From positions 6,190,003 through 6,254,002 of the forward strand of contig OY811976.1 of assembly GCA_963681505.1 (NCBI GenBank): a DNA stretch of 64,000 bases, read 5' to 3'. The notes under the pieces are model-generated. The model was not told the DNA's origin. It did not search any database and was given only the letters and a program-made list of their open reading frames with translations. The position numbers and the translations under genes are program-made. The stretch is from Eunapius fragilis. Taxonomy: Eukaryota; Porifera; Demospongiae; Spongillida; Spongillidae. Below, piece after piece: positions 18,606 through 57,600 of this stretch (position 1 is the stretch's first letter; every line of letters begins with the position of its first letter).

Positions 18606-20224
18606 ATGGCACAGTGTTCAAAAACGAGGCGGTTTCTGAGTGAGAAAGAGAAGCAGAAGGTCTTGAGTGAACTTAAAGCAGGTAAACCACCTTTGGATGT
18701 TGCGGATGAATTTGGCATCAGCAAAATCCAAGTATATAGCATTCGGAAAAAAAGCGCGCATTAATTGGCAGCATACCATTGTACACCAAGGTTACATCTA
18801 GCAGGGCTAAGTATCCCGCCATAGACAGGGCAGTATACGAATGGTTTCATTCCATTAGGACCTTTAGTGGAGATAGAAAACCGTTGCCTGATTCAGGAGC
18901 TATGATTAAGGCCCAAGCATCATTTGAAGCGAAGCGTCAAGGTATTGCTGAGTTTAGTGAGTCTGATGGCTGGTTTTACAATTGGAGGTGGCGTTGTAAT
19001 GTTTCAAAGAGCACTCGACTCCATGGGGAAGCGGCAGACGTAGACCTAGATGCAGCTGAACAAGAGATGCATGTACTTAGGAATGAGTTCACCAGCTATC
19101 CTGCTTCTAATGTGTTCAACATGGATGAAGCTGGGCTGTTTTACAGAGCCATCCCTAATCGTAGTTACCTAGCTGCAGATGAAGGTGACAGCCGTCAAGT
19201 TGGTCGTGGTCGCAAATCAATGAAAGCCCAAGAGCATGTAACTATTGTTCTATGTGTGAACGCCATAGGTACTTGTAAATTGACCCCTGTGGTGATTGGT
19301 TCTGCAAAGAATCCGTTTTGCTTTAAACTGAACCCTCCTAGTCTTCCATATTACCATCAGCCAAATGCATGGAATGATACTGTCAACTATAACAAGTGGT
19401 GGGATGAGGTTTATTTGCCCGCTGTAGCAACAGCACTCAAGGTCCTGTGGCACTTATAGTTGACGGGTTTTCAGGCCATGACAACAGTTGTAATGATCCC
19501 CTGGGATTTCAAATTCCCACCCAATGTAACATCTATTTATCAATCTCTTGACCAGGGTGTTATTGTTGCCCTAAAGGTTGGTTGTGAGCAGGCTTTTGGG
19601 GAGGTTGGTTGAAATTGCTGATAGATATAATGAATTACAAGTCTTGGCAAAGCACCTTCCTGCTGGTATGCAGGGCTTCAGTATGGGTGTCAACCTCATG
19701 TGAGAGATGCTACCATTTTGTTGAAGGAAGCATGGGACAGCATCTCCCTTTCAACAACTGCTGCATGCTGGGTGCACTTGAAGTGTCTCTCAGTTACGGA
19801 GACTACTCGGGTAGCAAGTGACTGTTGTTCCTACAACAGTAAGCTAGCGCCCATGACAATTGAGGCAATGTGTAACAAGCTTTCCAGTTTAACACTTCAT
19901 AGCTCTTCAGTAGTGAAGATGTTGGATGCCATGGACCTTGCTGTTCTTGAAAATGCGGCGCAAAAGGTGCATGATAAAGCTGCAACAATGCTTTCAGAAT
20001 GGTTGCATTTGGAGGAGATGGGCTTCGTAGATGTCAATGATGAGGGTGATGATTCTGATGAGTGTTAGGATGCAGTAGATAAGGTTCAGCTGCTCAAAGA
20101 TGCGTTACTATTGCTGCAGCAGCTTCATTCAGTGGGAGCAAAACTAGACGATAGTTTCATATTAGATGCATCACGAGATTTGTGCTTGCACATACATTCC
20201 AAAGTAATCCCTTCTGCTAATTAA
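18606..20224 (+). pseudogene. Pogo/Jerky-type (CENP-B/DDE) transposase, broken
   Basis: ATG at 18606 opens an N-terminal psq/CENP-B helix-turn-helix (FLSEKEKQKVLSELKAG...VADEFGISKIQVYSIRKK) ending in a TAA. A frame-shifted piece (18779-19459) holds the second CENP-B-type HTH (FYNWRWRCNVSK) and the first catalytic Asp (NVFNMDEAGLFYR). After another shift come VDGFSGHDNSCNDP (second Asp) and PPNVTSIYQSLDQGVI (third Asp), giving a DDD signature. The C-terminal part (19700-20068) continues past an in-frame TAG to a stop at 20222-20224. At least two frameshifts and two stops make it non-functional. Pogo-family transposases cut and paste at TA. Confidence 0.82.
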
Positions 20225-29959: not shown

Positions 29960-30885
29960 GAGAGTAGCTAATAGAATTAGTGTCAGCATATGCATTAATT
30001 CAAACCATTATTTTAATTAACTTACTGTTCCTCCAGTACATAGTAATGTTAGTTCTGGACAGTGGAGGCCACTCTACTCGCTTCTCGTGCCCAGACCCAA
30101 TGCATCGTAGCTACGGATTACCGCATGGGCGTACATGTGCTCGACTCTTGGAACATTCCGCCCTCGTATCCTGATGAATGACACTTTCCGGATACTCATC
30201 AAAATTTTACGGATACTACAATGTACAGAAAATATAATTTTTTCTCATGCCCTGATGGACTACCTTACCGGATATTAGCGGATATATGGATAGTACACGG
30301 AAAGGGTCATACCATCAGGACACGAGTATTTCTCCTCGTGCCCTTAAAGTGCCTCCAGATAAATGTATTACAATGTACGGAAATATTTTTTGCTGTACTT
30401 CTGCCTCGTGTCGTAATGGATGACCCATTCCGGATACTGTGGGAAATACGTGAAAATGCGGAAAATTTTGTAGGCTTCGCAGACCCAGCATTTCCGATTC
30501 AAATAGCTCTCCATAATTTCCTAACATAGGCATTGTATCAGTCCTTTGATCATTCCCAAAGAACTGAGGGCTCTGATAGCCCAAGAGCGCAGCATCTCCT
30601 AAATGCCCTTAAAACTTCTGTTTCAATCTTTGAGTACAGTTTTTAAAAGCTATAGTAATCCATCTAGCAGCAGGGAAGGCTACTCAACTGAGACATTGGC
30701 TGGTGCCTGCATTAACAAACAGGCACAACTTGCTTTGAAGAAGAATGCCTTCTGCTGTGCATCTCCCAGACCTATTTAAAGCATACCCTCACCCGCAGAC
30801 CTATCCAAAACCTGCCCTAACCCCTAGACATGTAATTAGCATACGTTCAAACTAATGTCACATTCATTAAACAAATGCAATGAAT
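29960..30885. other. Non-coding stretch
   Basis: No gene was recognised. CCGGATA/CGGATAC motifs recur between 30185 and 30440. Confidence 0.5.
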
Positions 30886-30891
30886 AAAATC

Positions 30892-33813
30892 CTAACTGAT
30901 GAAACTACACATCTAAAAGCAGCAGCAGTTACATCTAGCCATGGTGTCCACAAGGCTCTGGTCTTCATGTCTAATTTCATACATGCAAGGATATAAATGT
31001 TAATGGGGATGTGTGCAATCATGTTAACACTTCCACAAACCTATAATCACTTTGGTAGACATAAGCATGTAGTTGAAACATGAAGCGTTATTAACAGTGC
31101 AAAAATGAAACTTACCTTCTATATGCACCATTTGTGTACGCATTGTGAAAATTATGATGTAATGGAAGCAGCAAAGCTATTCATATACTTACTCCCTGCA
31201 TTTTTTATAATAGTATCCAAGGTGACAAGGAATAAGTAGGCATGGTAAGATGCAATGTGAAATGTTGATACTTACACACTGCATTGTTTATAATTGTATC
31301 CATGGTGGCAAGGAATAAGTAGGCATGTTAAGGTGCATTGGGAAATGCAACATCATTGATACTTACATCCTGTATTGTTCAATAGGTAGGCATGTTAAGG
31401 TGCAATGGGAAATATAATAACATCACTAAGATTGATACTTACTCCCTGCATTGTTCATAATAGTATCCATGGTGACAGAGAATCAGTAGGTATGTTACTA
31501 GTAAGGTGCAATGGGAAATGCTACATCATTGATACTTACACACTATATTGTTCATAATATTATCCATGGTGACAAGGAATAAATGATGTTTAGGTGCAAT
31601 GGGAAATGTTACATCATTCATACTTACGTTCTGCATTGTTCATAATAGTATCCATGGAGACAAGGAATAAGTAGGCATGTTAAGGTGCATTGGGAAATGC
31701 AACATCATTGATACTTACATCCTGTATTGTTCATAATAGTATCCATGGTGACAAGGATAATGATGTATGGTGCAATGGTAACTGTTACATCATTGATACT
31801 TACATACTGCATTGTGCATAATAGAATCCATGGTGACAAGGAATAAGTAAGCATGTTAAGGTGCAATAGGAAATGTAACATCACTGATACTTATACACTA
31901 CATTGTTCATAATAGTATCCATGGTGACAGGAATAAGTAGGCATGTTAAGGTGCAATGGGAAATGCGACATCATTGATACTTACGGGCTGCATTGTTCAT
32001 TATAGTATCCATGGTGACAAGGAATAAGTAGGCATGTTAAGGTGCAATGGGAAATGCGACATCATTGATACTTACAGGCTGCACCCATTGTTCATTATAG
32101 TATCCATGGTGACAAGCAATAAGTAGGCGTGTTAAAATGCAATGGGAAATGTACTATCATTGATACTTACAGACTGCATTGTTCATAATAGAATCCATGG
32201 TGACAAGGAATAAATGATGTTTAGGTGCAATGGGAAATGTTACATCATTCATACATGTACTTACATTCTGCATTGTTCATAATAGTATCCATGGTGACAA
32301 GGAATAAGTAGGTGTGTTAAGGTGCAATGGGAAATGTTGCATCATTGATACTTACACGCTGCATTGTTCATGTTAGCATTGTTGACAAGGAATAAGTATA
32401 CATGTTAAGGTGCAATGGGAAATGTAACATTGATACTTACAATCTGCATTGTTCATAATAGTATCCATGGGACAAGGAATAAGTAGGCATATTAAGGTGC
32501 AATGGGAAATGTAACGTCATTGATACTTACTACCTGCATTGTTCATAATAGTGTCCATGGTAACAAGGAATAAGTATGCACATTAAGGTGCAATCGGAAA
32601 TGTAACATTGATACTTACATACTGCATTGTTCATAATAGTATCGATGGTGACAAGGAATTAGTAGCCATGTTAAGGTGCAATGGGAAATGTAACGTCATT
32701 GATAATTCTTACATCCTGCATTGTTCATAATAGTATCCATGGCGATAATGAATAAGTAGGCATGTTAAGGTGCAATGAGAAATTGATACTTACAAGCTGA
32801 ATTGTTCATAATAGTATCCATGGTTACAAGGAATCAGTAGGTATGTTTAGGTTGTAACATCATTGGTACTTGCTGCATTGTTTTATAATAGTATCCATAG
32901 CAACAAGGAATAAGTATGCATGTTAAGGTACAATGGTAAATATAACATTGATACTTACACACTGCATTGTGCATAATTGTATCCACAGCGACAAGGAGTA
33001 AGTAGGCATGTTAAGGTGCAATGGGAAATGTAACATCATTCATTCTTACATCCTGCATTGTTCATAATAGTATCCATGGTGACAAGGATTAAGTAGGCAT
33101 GTTTAGGTGCAATGGGAAATGTAAAATCATTAATACTTACTCCCTGCATTGTTCATAATAGTATCCATGGTGATAAGGAATAAGTAGGTATGTTTAGGAA
33201 TTGATACACTTACATTCTGCATTGTTGATAATAGTATCCATGGTGACAAGGAATAAGTAGGTATGATACTAGTAAGGTGCTATGGGAAATGTAACATCAT
33301 TGATACTTACACACTGCATTGTTCATAATTGTATCCATGATAACAAGAAATAAGTATGCATGTTGAGGTACAATGGGAATTAACATAATTGATACTTACA
33401 CTCTGCATTGTTCCCAGTGTGGTAAGGGTAAGATGAGACATAGGTAATATGGTCATGATTTATGGGCACCAGATTGATCAATCATTCTAACCTGTGTCTT
33501 CAAGCCTTTAGCTCTCATATAGCTGATAATCATTTCTGGTTTTAAATGTTTTAAATGTTTTACATGGTATGTGCCTTCTTTCTGAACAGGGCATATAGCT
33601 CTTACCATGAAGAATGTCGTCCCTGCTAGCGACCAAGTCGCCGTTTTCACTACTGATATCGACCTTATCGCTCATCTCCACGGTATCCTTCAGCTAAGGG
33701 TGGCGAGGATCCTTTAACAATCGTGATCGATATTTGCGAACCTTGTAGGACTGGGGACGGGCATCAGCGAACAAGGTAAGCAGGGTCACAAGAAGAGACA
33801 GTTCCTTCAGCAT
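30892..33813 (-). CDS. Putative secreted Cys-rich peptide gene assembled from 27 single-codon microexons
   Basis: Exon 1 (33813-33742) encodes a signal peptide: MLKEL, a Leu/Val/Thr-rich core, cleavage near ADA. A 48-bp intron leads to exon 2 (33693-33606), charged and rich in Asp/Ser, ending in phase 1. Exon 3 (33535-33492) restores phase 0 and ends GLKTQ before GTTAGA. Then follow 27 three-base exons, each between an AG and a GT (mostly AATGCAG and GTAAGTATC), at 33400-33402 through 31193-31195 and 31116-31118. A terminal exon, 30912-30892, follows AACTGCTGCTGCTTTTAG and encodes six residues and TAG. No triplet is a stop; five are TGT, and the last exon adds a sixth Cys. Total about 101 residues. 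The layout recalls trematode micro-exon genes. The function is unknown. The single-codon splicing is inferred; one unit (31895-31897) has an AT donor and may be skipped without changing frame. Confidence 0.62.
31111..33410 (-). repeat. Tandem array of ~75-105-bp intron-like units separated by variable triplets
   Basis: There are 26 units plus a diverged 27th. On the minus strand each is GTAAGTATCA, ATTTCCCATTGCACCTTAAC, CCTACTTATTCCTTGTCACC, ATGGATACTATTATG and AACAATGCAG, then three variable bases, then the next GTAAG. Triplets (minus): TGT at 33311, 32959, 31895, 31540, 31276; GAT at 33050, 32713, 31719, 31367; GGA at 33141, 31443, 31193; AAT at 33214, 32265; AAC 31628; AGT 33400; TCT 32171; TAT 32619, 31804; CAA 32870; CTT 32794; GTA 32531; ATT 32441; CGT 32356; CCT 32076; CCC 31985; AAG 31116 (lowest coordinate given). 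CACCTTAAC resembles a branch site. The unit at 32870 uses GTACCA. Confidence 0.95.
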
Positions 33814-33870
33814 TCTTGATCGAAGAGTCGGCTATCGCAAGAAATGAGATGGTCACTGAAGTGTGTGGGC

Positions 33871-33878
33871 TTTTTATA
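33871..33878 (-). promoter_or_regulatory. TATA box of the microexon gene
   Basis: TATAAAAAG on the minus strand lies about 60 bases upstream of the ATG at 33813. This leaves room for a transcription start near 33845 and a ~35-base leader. Confidence 0.55.
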
Positions 33879-33884
33879 CATGTA

Positions 33885-34630
33885 CCTCATGCACATGCAG
33901 GAAGTGGTTAGTTAACCTTGGTCAGCCTGTAGTTAAGTTTGCGGCTGGACCGACGCTAGGTTACAATTAGAACAATACCGTAAACATTTCTCGTTGTTAA
34001 TTATAGACTGACAGTGGTATTGTGACTTAGCCGACTGTCTTTAGTCACAAATCTTATGCCACGTTCATACGGCACAATTTTTCCGTGTCAGCGCGGTACG
34101 ATACGTAACGGTACGTACGGTTTGGTACGGCACGGTTCCATGTCCAGCAATTTCGGACATCCATACATGTCTATGCATTGAAAACGCATGTAAAGTATTT
34201 GATTTTTTTCAAACATTAACGCAGTAGGATTATTTTTTTAAATATAAGAAATGCATTATTTTTTTTTTCGCTTTCATTTTGCGAGCAGGAGAATCAAGAA
34301 CAAAATTAATTACTTTCGTTATTACGTAATCATTTTTCTTTAGAGGTCAATAATGAAAATGATTAATAAACATCAAATGGTGGGCGCGCCCTAATAGTGC
34401 ACATTATAAGTGCTGGTGCGTGTGTGAGTGGGAGGAGCGAGTGGTTATCTAAATGCTCGAAATGTGCCCTTGGTTCAATACATTTGAATATTTCTTTCAT
34501 GCATCGGCGTGGATAGACGAACGTGCGCTCGGCGTGCATCTACCTGTTTGCTACGACTGCGTAAGTTAACGGTCCGTTCCTTCATACCTCATCCCGATAT
34601 GCGCAATGACACACCACGCGCACGCGCGCA
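33885..34630. other. Non-coding stretch
   Basis: No gene was found. Repeated GGTACG/CGTACC motifs (34096-34135) resemble those around 46980-47000, so a decayed dispersed element may be present. Confidence 0.45.
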
Positions 34631-37065: not shown

Positions 37066-37916
37066 ATGGTGGGGTATGCTATGTCTCCGCAAACAACTAT
37101 GAGCGTGCACGTAACATTTGCTCCTCGAATACAAAGCCCTAAATCATAATGTCTCTACTCCCTCAGTTGTTTATCAACTGTATACAGTGCACGCCCCACA
37201 TCAGAAATAGGGATAGATGTAGATATCAAACATTTTATACTCATTTCACTTCCAAATGCACCAACTGATACACAAATGTCCACAAGTAATAATCAACGAC
37301 GACTACTGCATAGCATCATGTCATTATCATCCAGTTAGAATAGTGTCAGGAAAGGATTGCCATCTTCTTGGAATGGATTTCATTTCATCCTATTTAAAAG
37401 AGACCAGTGAATCAAACAGTTGATGGTGTACCAACGCAATGTACCATTCATAGCTTGGTGGATGTTATGGTGGAAGAGGTAAGACCAAAACCAACATCTA
37501 AGAAACAAATAAAAACCAATTAACTCTGTACAATCATATAGCAGATGATATATCACACTGCTGCTACTACCAATTCCATAGATGCAGGAACTAAAGGTTA
37601 ACCCCATCAAATCCTCTGTGTAGAATTTATATCAGAAATGCCCTGCATACAAGTGTGTTTGTGTGTGTGTGTGTGCGTGTGTGCGTGCGTGCGAGTGTGT
37701 ATGTGTGTGTTTGTGTGCGTGTGTGTTGTATGTGCGTGTAACAACACAGTGTCAGTGTGGGTTAAATTTGCAAGCATACTGGATTTGGCTACAACAGATA
37801 GGAACCTCCATAGAAGGGTATCATTGTTATGATACCCAACAGGTCAAAATAAGTACCTGTGTGTGTGCATGTGTGTGTGTTGTGTGTGTGTGTGTGCATG
37901 TGTGTGTGTGTGTGTG

Positions 37917-37948
<32 letters not shown>

Positions 37949-38129
37949 CGCGTGTTAAATCACAAAGTCAGTGTGGGTTCTATTTGCAACTTACTGGATA
38001 TGGCTAGGAAAAGCTAACAGGCACTGCTATCTAGATCAATCTACCCAAGGTGTACACAGGTCAACCTCCATGTATGGGCATCAAAAGAGCTTGTTAAATA
38101 ACAGTACCTGTTGTGTGTGTGTGTGTGTG

Positions 38130-38167
<38 letters not shown>

Positions 38168-38169: not shown

Positions 38170-39387
38170 NNNNNNNNNNNNNNNNNNNNNNNNNNNNNNN
38201 NNNNNNNNNNNNNNNNNNNNNNNNNNNNNNNNNNNNNNNNNNNNNNNNNNNNNNNNNNNNNNNNNNNNNNNNNNNNNNNNNNNNNNNNNNNNNNNNNNNN
38301 NNNNNNNNNNNNNNNNNNNNNNNNNNNNNNNNNNNNNNNNNNNNNNNNNNNNNNNNNNNNNNNNNNNNNGAAAGGGCAACTCTATGATCTATTCAATAGC
38401 GAGTGCTTTACAATTGATTATAACGACTTCAGAAATTTTAATACCTGAAGTGCAAAAATCTGGGGGCTAAAGCCCCCCCCCCCCCTTTCCATATTGAGTC
38501 TGACCTGAAGCACCCCTTCACTGAAATCCTGGATATGCCAATGATGGTGGGGTATGCTATGTCTCCGCAAACAACTATGAGCGTGCACGTAACATTTGCT
38601 CCTCGAATACAAAGCCTAAATCATAATGTCTCTACTCCTCAGTTGTTATCAACTGTATACAGTGCACCGCCCCACATCAGAAATAGGGATAGATGTAGAT
38701 ATCAAACATTTTATACTCATTTCACTTCCAAATGCACCAACTGATACACAAATGTCCACAAGTAATAATCAACGACGACTACTGCATAGCATCATGTCAT
38801 TATCATCCAGTTAGAATAGTGTCAGAAAGGATTGCCATCTTCTTGGAATGGATTTCATTTCATCCTATTTAAAAGAGACCAGTGATCAAACAGTTGATGG
38901 TGTACCAACGCATGTACCATTCATAGCTTGGTGGATGTTATGGTGGAAGAGTAAGACCAAAACCAACATCTAAGAAACAAATAAAAACCAATTAACTCTG
39001 TACAATCATATAGCAGATGAATATCACACTGCTGCCTACTACCAATTCCATAGATGCAGGAACTAAAGGTTAACCCCATCAAATCCTCTGTGTAGAATTT
39101 ATATCAGAAATGCCCTGCATACAAGTGTGTTTGTGTGTGTGTGTGTGCGTGTGTGCGTGCGTGCGAGTGTGTATGTGTGTGTTTGTGTGCGTGTGTGTTG
39201 TATGTGCGTGTAACAACACAGTGTCAGTGTGGGTTAAATTTGCAAGCATACTGGATTTGGCTACAACAGATAGGAACTCCATAGAAGGGTATCATTGTTA
39301 TGATACCCAACAGGTCAAAATAAGTACCTGTGTGTGTGCATGTGTGTGTGTTGTGTGTGTGTGTGTGCATGTGTGTGTGTGTGTGTG

Positions 39388-39419
<32 letters not shown>

Positions 39420-39601
39420 CGCGTGTTAAATCACAAAGTCAGTGTGGGTTCTATTTGCAACTTACTGGATATGGCTAGGAAAGCTAACCAGGCACTGCTA
39501 TCTAGATCAATCTACCCAAGGTGTACACAGGTCAACCTCCATGTATGGGCATCAAAAGAGCTTGTTAAATAACAGTACCTGTGTGTGTGTGTGTGTGTGT
39601 G

Positions 39602-39661
<60 letters not shown>

Positions 39662-40328
39662 ACATGCGTGTGTGTGTGTGTGTGTGTGTGCACATGCGTG
39701 TGTGCATGTGTGTGCGTGTTAAATCACAAAGCCAGTGTAGGTTCAATTTGCAAGGGTACTGTATATGGCTGGGAAAAGCTAACCAGGCAAGATCAATCTA
39801 CCCACAGTGTACACAGGTCAACCCCATGTATGGGCATCAAAAGAGCTTGTTAAATAACAGTACCTATGTGTGTGTGCACATGCGTGTGTGCATGTGTGTG
39901 TGCAGAGATTATATATATGATCTCTGGTGTGTGTGTGCGTGTTAAATCCCAAAGTCAGTGTGGGTTCTATTTGCAAGTGTACTGGATATGGCTAAAAGCT
40001 AACCAGGCACTGCTATCTAGATCAATCTACCCACAGTGTACACAGGTCATGTATGGGCATAGCTTGTTAAATAACAGTACCTGTGTGTGTGTGTGCACAT
40101 GCGTGTGTGCATGTGTGTGCGTGTTAAATCACAAAGTCAGTGTGGGTTCAAGTTGCAAGCGTATTGGATATGGCATACGGAATAGCTTATGGGGCACTGC
40201 TATCTAGTCAATCTACCCACAGTGTACACAGTTCAACACAAGCTTGCATACCAGACAGGTCAAATAAAATAACAGTACCTATGTGTGTGTGTGTGTGTGT
40301 GTGTGGTGTGCGTGTGTGTGTGTGTGTG

Positions 40329-41830: not shown

Positions 41831-42462
41831 TGCTAAGTTATTTGTGGCACCAAAACCACCAAACCAAATGACTAGAAGAAAAAAGTTTGGCCACTACTTT
41901 CATGCATTAACAACCCACTCACCACTGCTGTACCGAATCATTTGTCTAAGATCCCTAAACACGGAGATTCAGGAGAGAATGTTCAGTCAAGTCAAACAAA
42001 TCAGCAATTCAACATGAAATCAAAACACAGAGAACATTATCACCAATGCCATCAAACGCCTGCATTATGAGCAACATTCTAAACATGAGGACACGGTAGC
42101 AGTGCAAAAGTTGTGAGGTAGAAAAGTTTGGAAAAGTTACAGGAAAAATCTCAAACACCCACTTTACAAGGGAGATTATGAAATCTGCATCGTACCAAGC
42201 ACACATCGAGAGGATTAGTGATTACCTTATTTGTGGACCTGGTGTGTGGTGGAAGACCACTGATGACGGAGTTGAGTTCTTTGATGGAGACTCAGAAGAG
42301 GATTACAAGGCTGTAGGTCCTTCCTTGCATCACTTCCATTCAGTTTCACTGGAGGACATTGATGCGCTTTTATTAGAACAGTGGGAACAGTGCATTGCAC
42401 AGAACATTGAACTTCTAGCACTAATAATGTACAGGACTGGTGCCGGTGTTGTACTGGGCTGA
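41826..42462 (+). pseudogene. C-terminal part of an unidentified mobile-element protein
   Basis: Successive frames read LFVAPKPPNQMTRRKKFGHYFHAL, THSPLLYRIICLRSLNTEIQERMF, then (shifted) ENIITNAIKRLHYEQH, a stop, and YLICGPGVWWKTTDDGVEFFDG, FHSVSLEDIDALLLEQWEQCI. FG-YFH--T-H-P--YR--SLRS-NTE--ER-F resembles a block I recall from uncharacterised transposon proteins of marine invertebrates. One-base deletions break the frame near 42015 and 42112. The reading frame ends where the 22-bp minisatellite begins. Confidence 0.5.
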
Positions 42463-43955
42463 TGTATTGAATGTACTGGACTGGTGTGATGTATGTACTG
42501 GACTGGTGTGATGTATGTACTGGACTGGTGTGATGTATGTACTAGACTGGTGTGTAGTATGTACTGGACTGGTGTGTTGTATGTACTGGACGGTGTGATG
42601 TATGTACTGGACTGATGTGGTGTATGTACTGGACTGGTGTGATGTATGTACTGGACTGGTGTGTAGTATGTACTGGACTGGTGTGTAGTATGTACTGGAC
42701 TGGTGTGTGATGTATGTACTGGACTGGTGTGTTGCATGTACTGGACTGGTGTGATGTATGTACTGGACTGGTGTGATGTATGTACAGGACTGGTGTGTAG
42801 TATGTACTGGACTGGTGTGTTGTATGTACTGGACTGGTGTGATGTATGTACTGGACTGATGTGGTGTATGTACTGACTGGTGTGTTGCATGTACTGGACT
42901 GGTGTGATGTATGGTACTGGACTGGTGTGATGTATGTACTGGACTGGTGTGTAGTATGTACTGGACTGGTGTGTTGTATGTACTGGACTGGTGTGATGTA
43001 TGTACTGGACTGATGTGGTGTATGTACTGGACTGGTGTGATGTATGTACTGGACTGGTGTGATGTATGTACTGGACTGGTGTGATGTATGTACTGGACTG
43101 GTGTGTAGTATGTACTGGACTGGTGTGTTGTATGTACTGGACTGGTGTGATGTATGTACTGGACTGATGTGGTGTATGTACTGGACTGGTGTGATGTATG
43201 TACTGGACTGGTGTGATGTATGTACTGGACTGGTGTGATGTATGTACTGGACTGGTGTGTAGTATGTACTGGACTGGTGTGTTGTATGTACTGGACTGGT
43301 GTGATGTATGTACTGGACTGATGTGGTGTATGTACTGGACTGGTGTGATGTATGTACTGGACTGGTGTGATGTATGTACTGGACTGGTGTGATGTATGTA
43401 CTGGACTGGTGTGTAGTATGTACTGGACTGTGTGTTGTATGTACTGGACTGGTGTGATGTATGTACTGGACTGATGTGGTGTATGTACTGGACTGGTGTG
43501 ATGTATGTACTGGACTGGTGTGATGTATGTACTGGACTGGTGTGATGTATGTACTGGACTGGTGTGTAGTATGTACTGGACTGGTGTGTTGTATGTACTG
43601 GACTGGTGTGATGTATGTACTGGACTGATGTGGTGTATGTACTGGACTGGTGTGATGTATGTACTGGACTGGTGTGATGTATGTACTGGACTGGTGTGAT
43701 GTATGTACTGGACTGGTGTGATGTATGTACTGGACTGGTGTGTAGTATGTACTGGACTGGTGTGTTGTATGTACTGGACTGGTGTGATGTATGTACTGGA
43801 CTGATGTGGTGTATGTACTGGACTGGTGTGTTGTATGTACTGGACTGGTGTGTTGTATGTACTGGACTGGTGTGATGTATGTACTGGACTGGTGTGATGT
43901 ATGTACTGGACTGGTGTGATGTATGTACTGGACTGGTGTGTTGTATGTACTGACC
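42440..43955. repeat. 22-bp minisatellite (~69 copies) with 154-bp higher-order repeat
   Basis: The unit is GTACTGGACTGGTGTGATGTAT with variants (GTAG, GTTG, ATGTGG). Seven-unit blocks of 154 bp recur in fixed variant order (for example starts at 43044 and 43198). Occasional 21-bp units shift the phase. Minus-strand ORFs of 490 and 513 codons arise because the unit lacks stops in those frames. Confidence 0.97.
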
Positions 43956-54679: not shown

Positions 54680-57600
54680 TTAATGATGTTCATATGTATT
54701 GGGCTGAAATATAATTACATCAGTAGGTGAGTATTTGATAGGTACATGAACACATTTTCTTAAAATTGAAATAACTGGAACAGCCAGAACATTATTTGTG
54801 AGTGATATTTTCTTAACTACAACAAAATACGAATTCAGTTGCATATTTCTGAAGGACTTGAGGTCATGTATTGTTAGTGACACATTGTCCAGGATTCCTT
54901 GAGATACCCGTTCGTAAACATCAATTATTGCTATATGATCTGCATTCTTCAATACACAAAATTTTCTTATTGAACCCAACATCAATGTGTCATGATACAT
55001 GAATTCACAAACCGAACTGTCACGTGCCAATTTGGTCTTTTTAGCTTGATATGCAGTTCCATTTATCATATATGATAAATAAGTAGGTAGAACCTTGTCA
55101 GAAACCCTGTAATCTGAATTGGATAAAATATTTGCTTCATCTGTTAAAAGCTGTGTGTTTCTGCACTTTCCCAGGGGTCCATTATTGATATTTACACTTT
55201 GATTAAAAAATGCAACAGTACGTGCACTTTCCACAGGTAATGCATTTATGTGAGCTGTCATTGAGTAGTTCATTGTGATGCCACGAATCAAGCTGGGTAT
55301 AAAATTCCTACACCCATGCCTATGTTGCTTTATGTACCCATTCATATTTTCAAAACCAAAGCAGGAGTATGCCCACAGAGGTCCTAACATTTGCACAAAT
55401 CTGGAAAGATGAACAACACTGTGCAAGTTTGGTGACAGCATCTCTTCAGGATACAGTTGTGGCACAAGATTGTAAAATAGTACCAACATTTCATCAGCAG
55501 CTCTGATGTCTTCAGAAGTTATACGTGTTCCAAGTAAAATGTGCATAGCCGTAACTAATAGAGCAAAGTGGTGAACATAGTCAGGAGGCAAAATTTTGGT
55601 AAGAATTGGAAGGCTATAATACAACAACCAAACTTTATACTCTGATGCCTTCCAATAGGCTTGAGCTGTTCCAGTTTCTCTCGGGGATCGCCTAAACTCG
55701 TGTGGTGGTTTAATTCTAAGCAGATACTTGTTTATGATGTTGACTACTTTTCCAAGAAAGAATCTTAGTTCAGCATACTTTGGATTGATCCAACAACATA
55801 AAAATGCTTTCACCACACCTTCTAGAATAGCATGCATATAGTCAATAGGTATATGGTATATTGAAATGAAAGGTGCCAATAGAGATATTCCTTTTACTCC
55901 AAACACAGGCCTTCCCAACATAATTGCTTTTTGCGCCCACCCAGCTATTTCAAAAGGTGTGCGAATTTTGTGTGGTTCAATTGGAAGGTAGAGGTGTCGG
56001 TGACACTTATGTATACCCCTGTCTGTACAATAAGGACATCCATAATAACCGTTGTATTGTGTTATATTTAATGCTGTCACTTTAGCTGGAAAATCAAAAA
56101 CTCCTGCTATAAGTTTAGCTTTTACAACCTTTGTGCCATCAGGGGTTGATATTTCTATACCCTTAGTTTCAAGCTGTTGTATTTTTGAAAGTGTTGGTGG
56201 AAGAAGGATATCCATCGGTGGTTTGCATGGTCCAAGCCATAAAGCACCTACCATAGTATTTTCTGCATTCATTCGAGTTAATGGTGGAAGTGATGTTGTG
56301 ATGAGAAGCAAAGGCCAAAGGGTCATACCTGACGAAAGTATTGGTGAAAGACAATGCATTAATTATTATGATGAACAGCAAACCCTTCATACTGATTTGT
56401 GATCATAAATTAAATCTTAATGTGTGTGTGTAGATGTATAGAATGAGGAACCTTTGTAGAAAAATTAAATTGTGCCAAGTTTATATTATTTCAACATATC
56501 TACTTACCCTTGTACAAATGAACACTAACCTGATGACTTGAAAACAGGAACTCCATCGCAACACATAATGAGTCCTGTATGCTCTGGCACTGAAAGAAAC
56601 TGCCCTTCTTTCCGAAGTGCTGCTGCAATACTTCCATCCGAAATGTCACCAATGATGCCTTCATTAGTATTGTGAGTTTTATAGAAGTACTGAGATATTT
56701 CATTCCACTTTTCTGCATGAAATTAAACACACTGCCAAGTATTTTAAAACTTACATGCTTGCTTACCTGAATAAATTATTCTCAAATGCCTTTCAAACGG
56801 AAGAACTGCAAAGTAACATGTCTGTGCTTTGTTAACCCTACAATGCTGCTCTGAACACTTATTTAAACCTTCCAAATTTTGCATACATAGTGAACAATAC
56901 TTCTGGATGGTATAATCATATTCACACATGAATTGCTTCCATAGCTGGTAAGGTGTTTTTGCACATTGATTGATATCTGAACAGTGGATTGATACCCATT
57001 CTAACAATTTACTGGTAGCACATTTGCTTAAGTGGTTTGTAACTGAAAAATAGTTGCATGCTAGCCAGCTAGCTTCCTTACTAAGTGGTGCACCTAAATA
57101 TAGGGCACTTCCACTTATACTACTTCTGCAGACATCATCTTCCATAATCTCAAACTGTTCATTGTCACTGTCATTACTATCATCCTCTATGCCCTTCCTC
57201 TGTTCACCTACATCATCACTGTCACCCTCTATACCATTTCTCTGTTCATTATCACTGACATCATCATCTTCTATGCTACCCTCACTTACATCATTACTAT
57301 CTCCTTCTACACCCTTGCTCTGTTCATTATCACTGATATCATCATCATCCTCTGTGCTGTCTTCGTTCTGTTCATTGTGACCAACATCATTACTATCACC
57401 CTCAACACCCTCATCATCAACATCATCCTCTATGCACTTACTCTGTTCATTGTCACTGACATAATAACTATTATTGCTCTGTTCACTGACATCATCACTA
57501 TTACCTTTATCTTTACTGGTGAAATGTTCACTATCATTGCTGCCCCCTTGACCATCTCCATTATCGTTATAGTATTCACCTTCCTGTTTGTCCCCATATC

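Follow-up and report, generated by a model that had tools for sequence, protein, structure and literature searches.

Can a gene specify its product one residue per exon, dozens of times in a row? The question is raised by a tandem array in the genome of the freshwater sponge Eunapius fragilis (chromosome 6, minus strand), within C6:6190003-6254002 (the whole 64,000-nucleotide stretch analysed here, hereinafter the window, in whose positions all coordinates without a chromosome prefix are given). The array consists of 27 nucleotide triplets, each located between ...AG and GTAAG-like sequence. As reasoned below from genomic sequence, the gene that contains this array and its paralogs very probably encode precursors of secreted peptides in which the variable part would be specified by one codon per exon. 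The original prediction that the triplets are phase-0 single-codon microexons is supported, if not proven, by a family of genes with a common leader, the restoration of phase at the array, the constant length of 3, the lack of stops, the in-frame Lys-stop exon of several paralogs, and a divergence of codons that greatly exceeds that of introns.

The array and the gene model of the window copy

The first bases of the 27 triplets run from 33402 down to 31118, with a spacing of 73-97 bases. In order, the triplets are AGT TGT AAT GGA GAT TGT CAA CTT GAT TAT GTA ATT CGT AAT TCT CCT CCC TGT TAT GAT AAC TGT GGA GAT TGT GGA AAG; joined in phase 0, they read SCNGDCQLDYVIRNSPPCYDNCGDCGK, and both other phases hit stops. 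The 26 tandem units and one diverged unit reported initially are all present (the diverged one is unit 27), and so are the 16 triplet values with no stop (16 distinct values in the 27 triplets, 15 in the first 26). The claim of a constant intron around a variable triplet is borne out by the per-column entropy of the aligned units: the triplet, with 1.96, 1.78 and 1.07 bits at positions 1, 2 and 3 (first 26 triplets), is far more variable than the intron columns, with a mean of 0.35 and a maximum of 1.21 bits (computed over 25 aligned introns, in the 88 columns that have 13 letters or more). The mean pairwise difference is 0.13 in the introns versus 0.77, 0.70 and 0.44 at the triplet positions. 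The borders are less uniform than the AATGCAG-N3-GTAAG described at first: ATTCAG, ATGTAG, ATACAG, ATATAG and GGTGCAG acceptors also occur, and the GTAAG donor does not extend to units 7 and 18, the latter of which reads ATAAG, with no GT (Table 1).

Upstream of the array, three predicted exons with a total frame of 72 + 88 + 44 bases reach phase 0 exactly at the first triplet, and the joined frame is open. The product of exon 1 is hydrophobic and signal-peptide-like, as judged by eye, and the TATA-box-like sequence upstream of the ATG might be a promoter element. The in-frame TAG after exon 1 was considered as a disabling stop and rejected, because the length of intron 1 varies out of frame among the paralogs; the TAG is the acceptor of this short intron.

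Table 1. Predicted features of the array gene (window positions)
Feature	Position	Strand	Remarks
TATA-box-like sequence TATAAAAAG	33870..33878	-	last base 57 bases upstream of ATG
Exon 1	33742..33813	-	72 bases, 24 codons, ends in phase 0: MLKELSLLVTLLTLFADARPQSYK
Intron 1	33694..33741	-	48 bases, ends CCTTAG; in-frame TAG within acceptor
Exon 2	33606..33693	-	88 bases, ends in phase 1: LKDTVEMSDKVDISSENGDLVASRDDILH + G
Exon 3	33492..33535	-	44 bases (2 mod 3), restores phase 0: (G)AA MIISYMRAKGLKTQ
Intron 3	33403..33491	-	89 bases, GTTAGA...AATGCAG, leads into array
Single-codon exon array	31116..33402	-	27 units with 26 introns of 70-94 bases between them
Unit 7	32870..32872	-	codon CAA, weak donor GTACC
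Unit 18	31895..31897	-	codon TGT, donor AT instead of GT (ATAAGTATC)
Unit 27	31116..31118	-	codon AAG, diverged flanking introns
Possible terminal exon (uncertain)	30867..31040	-	GTTTGTGGA... (VCGSVNM..., stop after 57 codons)

A gene family with a common leader

The E. fragilis genome consists of 218.91 Mb in 23 chromosomes and a 28.5 kb mitochondrial genome, as stated in the genome report (PMC12616128, PubMed Central, PMC); the sequence searched here comprises 218,937,333 bases in 24 contigs. The pattern ACAATGCAG-N3-GTAAGTAT occurs at 404 sites and ACAATGCAG-N3-GTAAG at 488 sites, with 0 sites in the reversed control of each, so that a chance origin of the acceptor-N3-donor arrangement is excluded genome-wide. 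A similar, albeit not identical, pattern with four bases, AATGCAG-N4-GTAAGTATC, has 1 site. The first 15 bases of exon 1 are found in 34 exact copies (reversed control, 0), and the stretch upstream of the array (33590-33920) yields 40 scored matches among 48 candidates, the window included.

The leader MLKELALLVTLLALFADARP.. is present at 26 loci in the analysed regions, including the window gene, and at 19 of these it is followed, within the sequence analysed, by an array on the same strand with four or more microexons. The remaining seven leaders include those at C22:3892408, C21:1167855 and on C18, which have two or three detected units, and the one at C21:4104702, for which only about 1.5 kb downstream was analysed. 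Chains of at least four units are found in 21 of the 30 merged regions; the arrays at C1:16768344 and C3:10500985 have no leader in the stretch analysed, and the two array regions of C12 are near-identical copies.

Among the 21 parsed loci, the counterpart of intron 1 is 37-59 bases long, with varying length mod 3 (both 37-base values come from C20 genes, in which the acceptor could not be placed), and exon 2 is 1 mod 3 in 18, with a length of 67-103 bases in those 18. Exon 3 was recognised by eye in 13 of the 19 genes with a leader and an array, with a pattern that assumes whole codons and so does not test the length independently. The last unit is followed in the predicted phase 0 by a Lys-stop exon, AAA TGA or AAA TAA, in seven genes (six on C21 and one on C11), and unit 27 of the window array lies where the paralogs carry the Lys codon of this terminal exon. 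The leader exons are under purifying selection, with a ratio of nonsynonymous to synonymous substitution rates (dN/dS), pooled over non-independent pairs, of 0.41 for exon 1 (26 loci) and 0.28 for the initial 11 codons of exon 3 (nine loci). The family thus combines a conserved leader with a variable mature part, the combination that characterises secreted prepropeptides.

The C12 pair, L033 (C12:3136320) and L034/L054 (C12:3124500), consists of oppositely oriented array genes, separated by about 10 kb, that have the same 12 codons where they can be compared; the sequence upstream of their ATG resembles the 3' end of the window array. The locus L048 (C21:1167855-1170967), with a shortened exon 2 and two detected units beside unlike sequence, is probably a disrupted copy.

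Exon length and the absence of stops

When the exon length was left free between 0 and 30, 371 of the 389 candidate microexons were exactly 3 nucleotides (nt) long; the splice profiles were trained on the window array, and the 371 include 24 window hits and 12 near-identical C12 units. The same scoring recovers 24 of the 27 window units, the other three falling below the threshold. A chain search with lengths from 0 to 15, which is not independent given that its profiles were retrained on earlier hits, yields 374 candidates of 3 nt among 383, and five of the nine exceptions are Lys-stop stretches (AAATGAG three times, AAATAAG and AAATGAGAG). Exon length stays at 3 while intron length ranges from 68 to 107.

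No stop is found among the 371 triplets versus 9.8 expected from position frequencies (p ~6e-5); when repeats of a codon at a locus are counted only once and the C12 copy is left out, there are 0 stops in 188 triplets versus 5.7 expected (p ~0.001). Permutation within loci, with the C12 copy likewise dropped, leads to an expectation of 10.0 stops in 362 triplets and 5.7 in the 188 de-duplicated ones, and among 2000 shuffles, none of those with 362 triplets and about 0.1% of those with 188 are free of stops. These figures should be read with caution given that 25 of the 56 three-column windows inside the introns are stop-free as well, with at most 24 distinct triplets in each versus 39 at the codon.

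These results bear on the simplest alternative, that the array is a minisatellite in one long intron of a secreted-protein gene, with triplets that are never spliced and owe their variability to a mutational quirk. Tandem Repeats Finder indeed reports overlapping ordinary arrays, mostly with a period of 81-97 bases, and tandem duplication has clearly shaped these loci. However, instead of being spread over the unit, variation is concentrated in exactly the three bases between acceptor and donor, there are no stops, and the length is held at 3; moreover, the same gene order recurs in many paralogs, and the in-frame Lys-stop exon stands at the end of the array in seven genes. On the strength of entropy, stops, held exon length and paralogs, a plain minisatellite was rejected and is considered extremely improbable.

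The arrays of some paralogs are longer than that of the window: the predicted C11 product is IPFDPSKVINLDPSFDPKNFVFCPPDKPDPSKVINFDKFYKFCPDKFDDC, with 50 codons, and C21 genes are predicted to encode LRRRPRPRPDPLRRLLPPLLPPIRG-K-stop and CDPGCPGCICSWRG-K-stop (units missed by the search may be absent from all three). Compatible with single-codon exons in series is the variant reading that the triplets are alternative exons, so that, through skipping, each mRNA would include its own in-frame selection of codons and one gene would give many peptides instead of a single product of 27 residues. Almost all of the units detected have a length of 3 nt and are in phase 0, and any subset would remain in frame; furthermore, donors and acceptors are nearly interchangeable. 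Given the 3-nt length of the units, skipping of any one would preserve the frame, and the AT donor of unit 18 would be harmless; this unit is perhaps skipped in the haplotype at hand, with the in-frame loss of one Cys. Against such variable use, blocks of codons repeat in the same order along the C11 array (DPSKVIN, for example), which suggests that codon order and inclusion matter, and we consider extensive alternative use a possibility of the less likely kind.

Several compositional features of the triplets were also noticed. T occupies the third codon position in 267 of the 371 triplets. CAG is absent and CAA occurs 5 times among the 371, which might point to avoidance of a second strong acceptor (CAGCAG), although the numbers are small. 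The arrays on C3, C7, C13 and C20 (two) end in at least two Cys codons, with TGT and TGC mixed and gaps in some.

Codon change between near-identical introns

In 264 pairs of units whose introns differ by less than 2% (from a set of 297 introns), the three codon positions differ in 55, 55 and 44% of the pairs. Between nearest-neighbour introns, the codon upstream is identical in 70 of 297 cases and the one downstream in 74 of 290, compared with 7% for random pairs; therefore, codons travel with introns at first. Ten colinear duplicated runs were identified (six of them within C11, of which five reuse the same four blocks), in which introns differ at 68 of 3254 positions (2.1%, with gap openings counted) and interior codons in 17 of 84 cases (20%), that is, codon divergence is about 10 times the intron divergence; the Fisher p value of 1e-11 is optimistic because the runs overlap. 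In the clearest run, units 1-7 versus 14-20 at C21:1469500, 5 of the 616 intron bases differ, as do 6 of the 18 codon bases.

The six distinct codon changes in these runs are GGA/CCT, CGT/ATT, TGT/GAT, CCT/AAG and ATT/TGG, at two or three bases, and GGA/GGT, at one. More generally, when codons beside introns less than 2% apart differ, they do so at two or three bases in 86 of 114 pairs (75%); the corresponding values are 13 of 21 (62%) beside mismatch-free introns and 78% for all pairs. Exchange of whole codons is favoured because point mutation would produce mostly one-base steps, and short conversion tracts could explain the swaps because the flanking intron ends vary little. Codons are thus probably swapped whole between near-identical introns, with gene conversion as a candidate mechanism.

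The likeness of the introns invites another explanation. Introners are short, alike, splice-competent introns, and the codons might have existed beforehand, with intron-generating transposable elements inserted between all of them. The array introns are short, alike and splice-competent-looking too, but the colinear duplicated runs with unit-specific intron marks show duplication of units, and among the genome-wide matches listed, most are in clusters and not single. Hence insertion of introners between all codons seems very unlikely.

Splice signals and the proposed mechanism

Among the 297 introns, which were chosen by splice-site score, 286 begin with GTAAG, 229 begin with GTAAGTAT, and 270 end with CAG; YTNAY is present in 289 but is weakly informative. 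U1 pairs with CAG/GUAAGUAU. The donor GTAAGTAT could match U1 small nuclear RNA fully over positions +1 to +8, with positions -3 to -1 being the free codon, and such pairing would offset an exon that is too short and too variable to supply -3 to -1. The array introns would presumably be removed in sequence.

Under the proposed mechanism, a conserved signal peptide and a pro-region that is acidic as judged by eye would come from exons 1-3. The mature peptide would be encoded with one codon per 3-nt exon (27 codons for the window gene, and as many as 50 found in a paralog), the codon exons being set between introns of about 88 bases and joined in phase 0. Arrays would grow via tandem duplication of intron-and-codon units and of multi-unit blocks; whole codons would then pass between units, probably through gene conversion over short tracts or through recombination, in which the near-identical introns would act as homology arms; the peptides would be kept diverse and free of stops by selection. 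The hypervariable tails are Cys-rich, Pro/Arg-rich or Gly/Lys-rich, and the combination of leader, pro-region and hypervariable tail would fit secreted peptides of defence or competition (of the defence or antimicrobial type). A more speculative extension, which we put forward tentatively, is that the arrays form a codon-level diversity system, in which cassettes between intron arms are swapped by conversion and possibly used in exon-skipped subsets, to produce an open-ended peptide repertoire behind a fixed leader in an animal that has neither nerves nor antibodies.

If spliced as implied, these genes would represent an extreme fragmentation of exons, with one residue per splicing event, dozens in a row, and would probe the shortest exon that the spliceosome can use serially. 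In addition, they would offer an example from nature of codons that travel as cassettes of recombination, and the encoded peptides would form a class likely to escape the usual gene-finding and read-mapping programs.

Observations that are difficult to accommodate

Several observations weigh against the interpretation of the triplets as serial exons of functional genes. The evidence comes from the genomic DNA of one genome, with the array analysis covering 30 merged regions. In the approximately 4.4 kb analysed downstream of the leaders at C21:1202145, 1340743 and 1405371, no chain of four units was detected. Two C20 genes and one shortened C21 gene depart from the 1 mod 3 length of exon 2, and five further leader loci have no match to this exon; the exon 3 pattern is unmatched in six of the 19 array genes (the C12 pair, C22:3881195, C1:24191816, C11:6512099 and C19), and phase 0 at their arrays is therefore presumptive. 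Several chains include long gaps, that is, units missed by scoring or decayed. In the window gene and its C12 relative, the exon at the position of Lys-stop reads AAG and continues to another exon, and for the other arrays, the analysed sequence either stops before the 3' end or does not show it clearly. The duplicated runs were kept only if clearly in register, and five of the ten have no codon change at all. No intron-less retrocopy of two joined arrays was found, a result that is uninformative without a positive control.

For the window copy itself, in which the 3' end is unclear and unit 18 is devoid of a GT donor, these points could also mean that the family is as described but this particular member is a decaying pseudogene, which would not conflict with single-codon exons in the family. 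The weak donor of unit 7 and the terminal exon without the Lys-stop found in seven paralogs are compatible with such decay. Conversely, the frame is open through exons 1-3 and all 27 triplets, the leader is intact, a TATA-like element is present, and the C12 relative similarly lacks Lys-stop yet soon ends in VCNH-stop. The latter comparison renders the terminal exon of the window gene uncertain, because what follows the position of VCNH-stop resembles the untranslated sequence of the C12 gene. Altogether, decay of the window copy is regarded as unlikely.

Relation to known systems

The schistosome micro-exon genes (MEGs) are the nearest kind to the sponge array genes. They encode secreted proteins with many short exons, mostly a multiple of 3, of which the central ones are alternatively spliced; the exons are 6 to 81 bp long (3-81 in the abstract), mostly 15 bp, with 10 to 20 short exons per gene and introns of 0.1-5 kb (PMC10526429), and their evolution is accelerated (PMC4350168). 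The sponge genes share short exons in multiples of 3 (all but 18 of the candidates are 3 nt long) but differ in size, with 3-nt exons, near-identical introns of 68-107 bases and runs of up to 50, a comparison that concerns architecture. The bicycle/megacycle genes of aphids, fast-evolving putative effectors with microexons, more than 100 in one gene, are analogous as judged by architecture, and arrays of one-codon exons with repeated introns are not described in the part of that report at hand (PMC9168663).

Other parallels concern single aspects of these genes. Venom peptide and phospholipase A2 families have a constant signal peptide and pro-region, a fast-evolving mature part, and introns more conserved than exons, but the mature part is encoded in one or a few exons, with no codon-sized cassettes. 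NCAM genes contain an isolated three-base microexon, that is, one 3-nt exon in an ordinary protein versus the tandem run of the sponge. The same distinction applies to the isolated 3-nt exons spliced into human RPS24 (PMC12686416) and dog PICALM (PMC4148152).

In open-licence PMC text, judged mostly from titles and the starts of abstracts, no description of serial one-codon exons was found, nor did such text yield microexon reports for Ephydatia or the leader peptide strings. In Pfam, the joined peptide, exon 1 and exon 2 (three short queries) had no match, and the joined peptide had none among PDB sequences. Collections of genome contigs and of viral contigs, each searched with one exact pattern, likewise gave no match. 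A large protein search with the predicted precursor retrieved only two unspliced open reading frames, one of which, P0001, was identified by eye as the C1:23599569 gene read into an intron.

Other features of the window

Two open frames of the window are transposase-like, one with the Transposase_21 (tnp2) domain (54680-56362, minus strand) and the other with a Tc5 helix-turn-helix domain plus DDE_1 (18740-19459, plus strand). A 22-base minisatellite with about 69 copies occupies positions 42427-43952 and contains long open frames on the minus strand. The stretches 37653-38166 and 39125-39719 show the same rows of a TG-rich repeat and alike translated frames, one of them followed by a run of N, and are probably the product of a recent local duplication.

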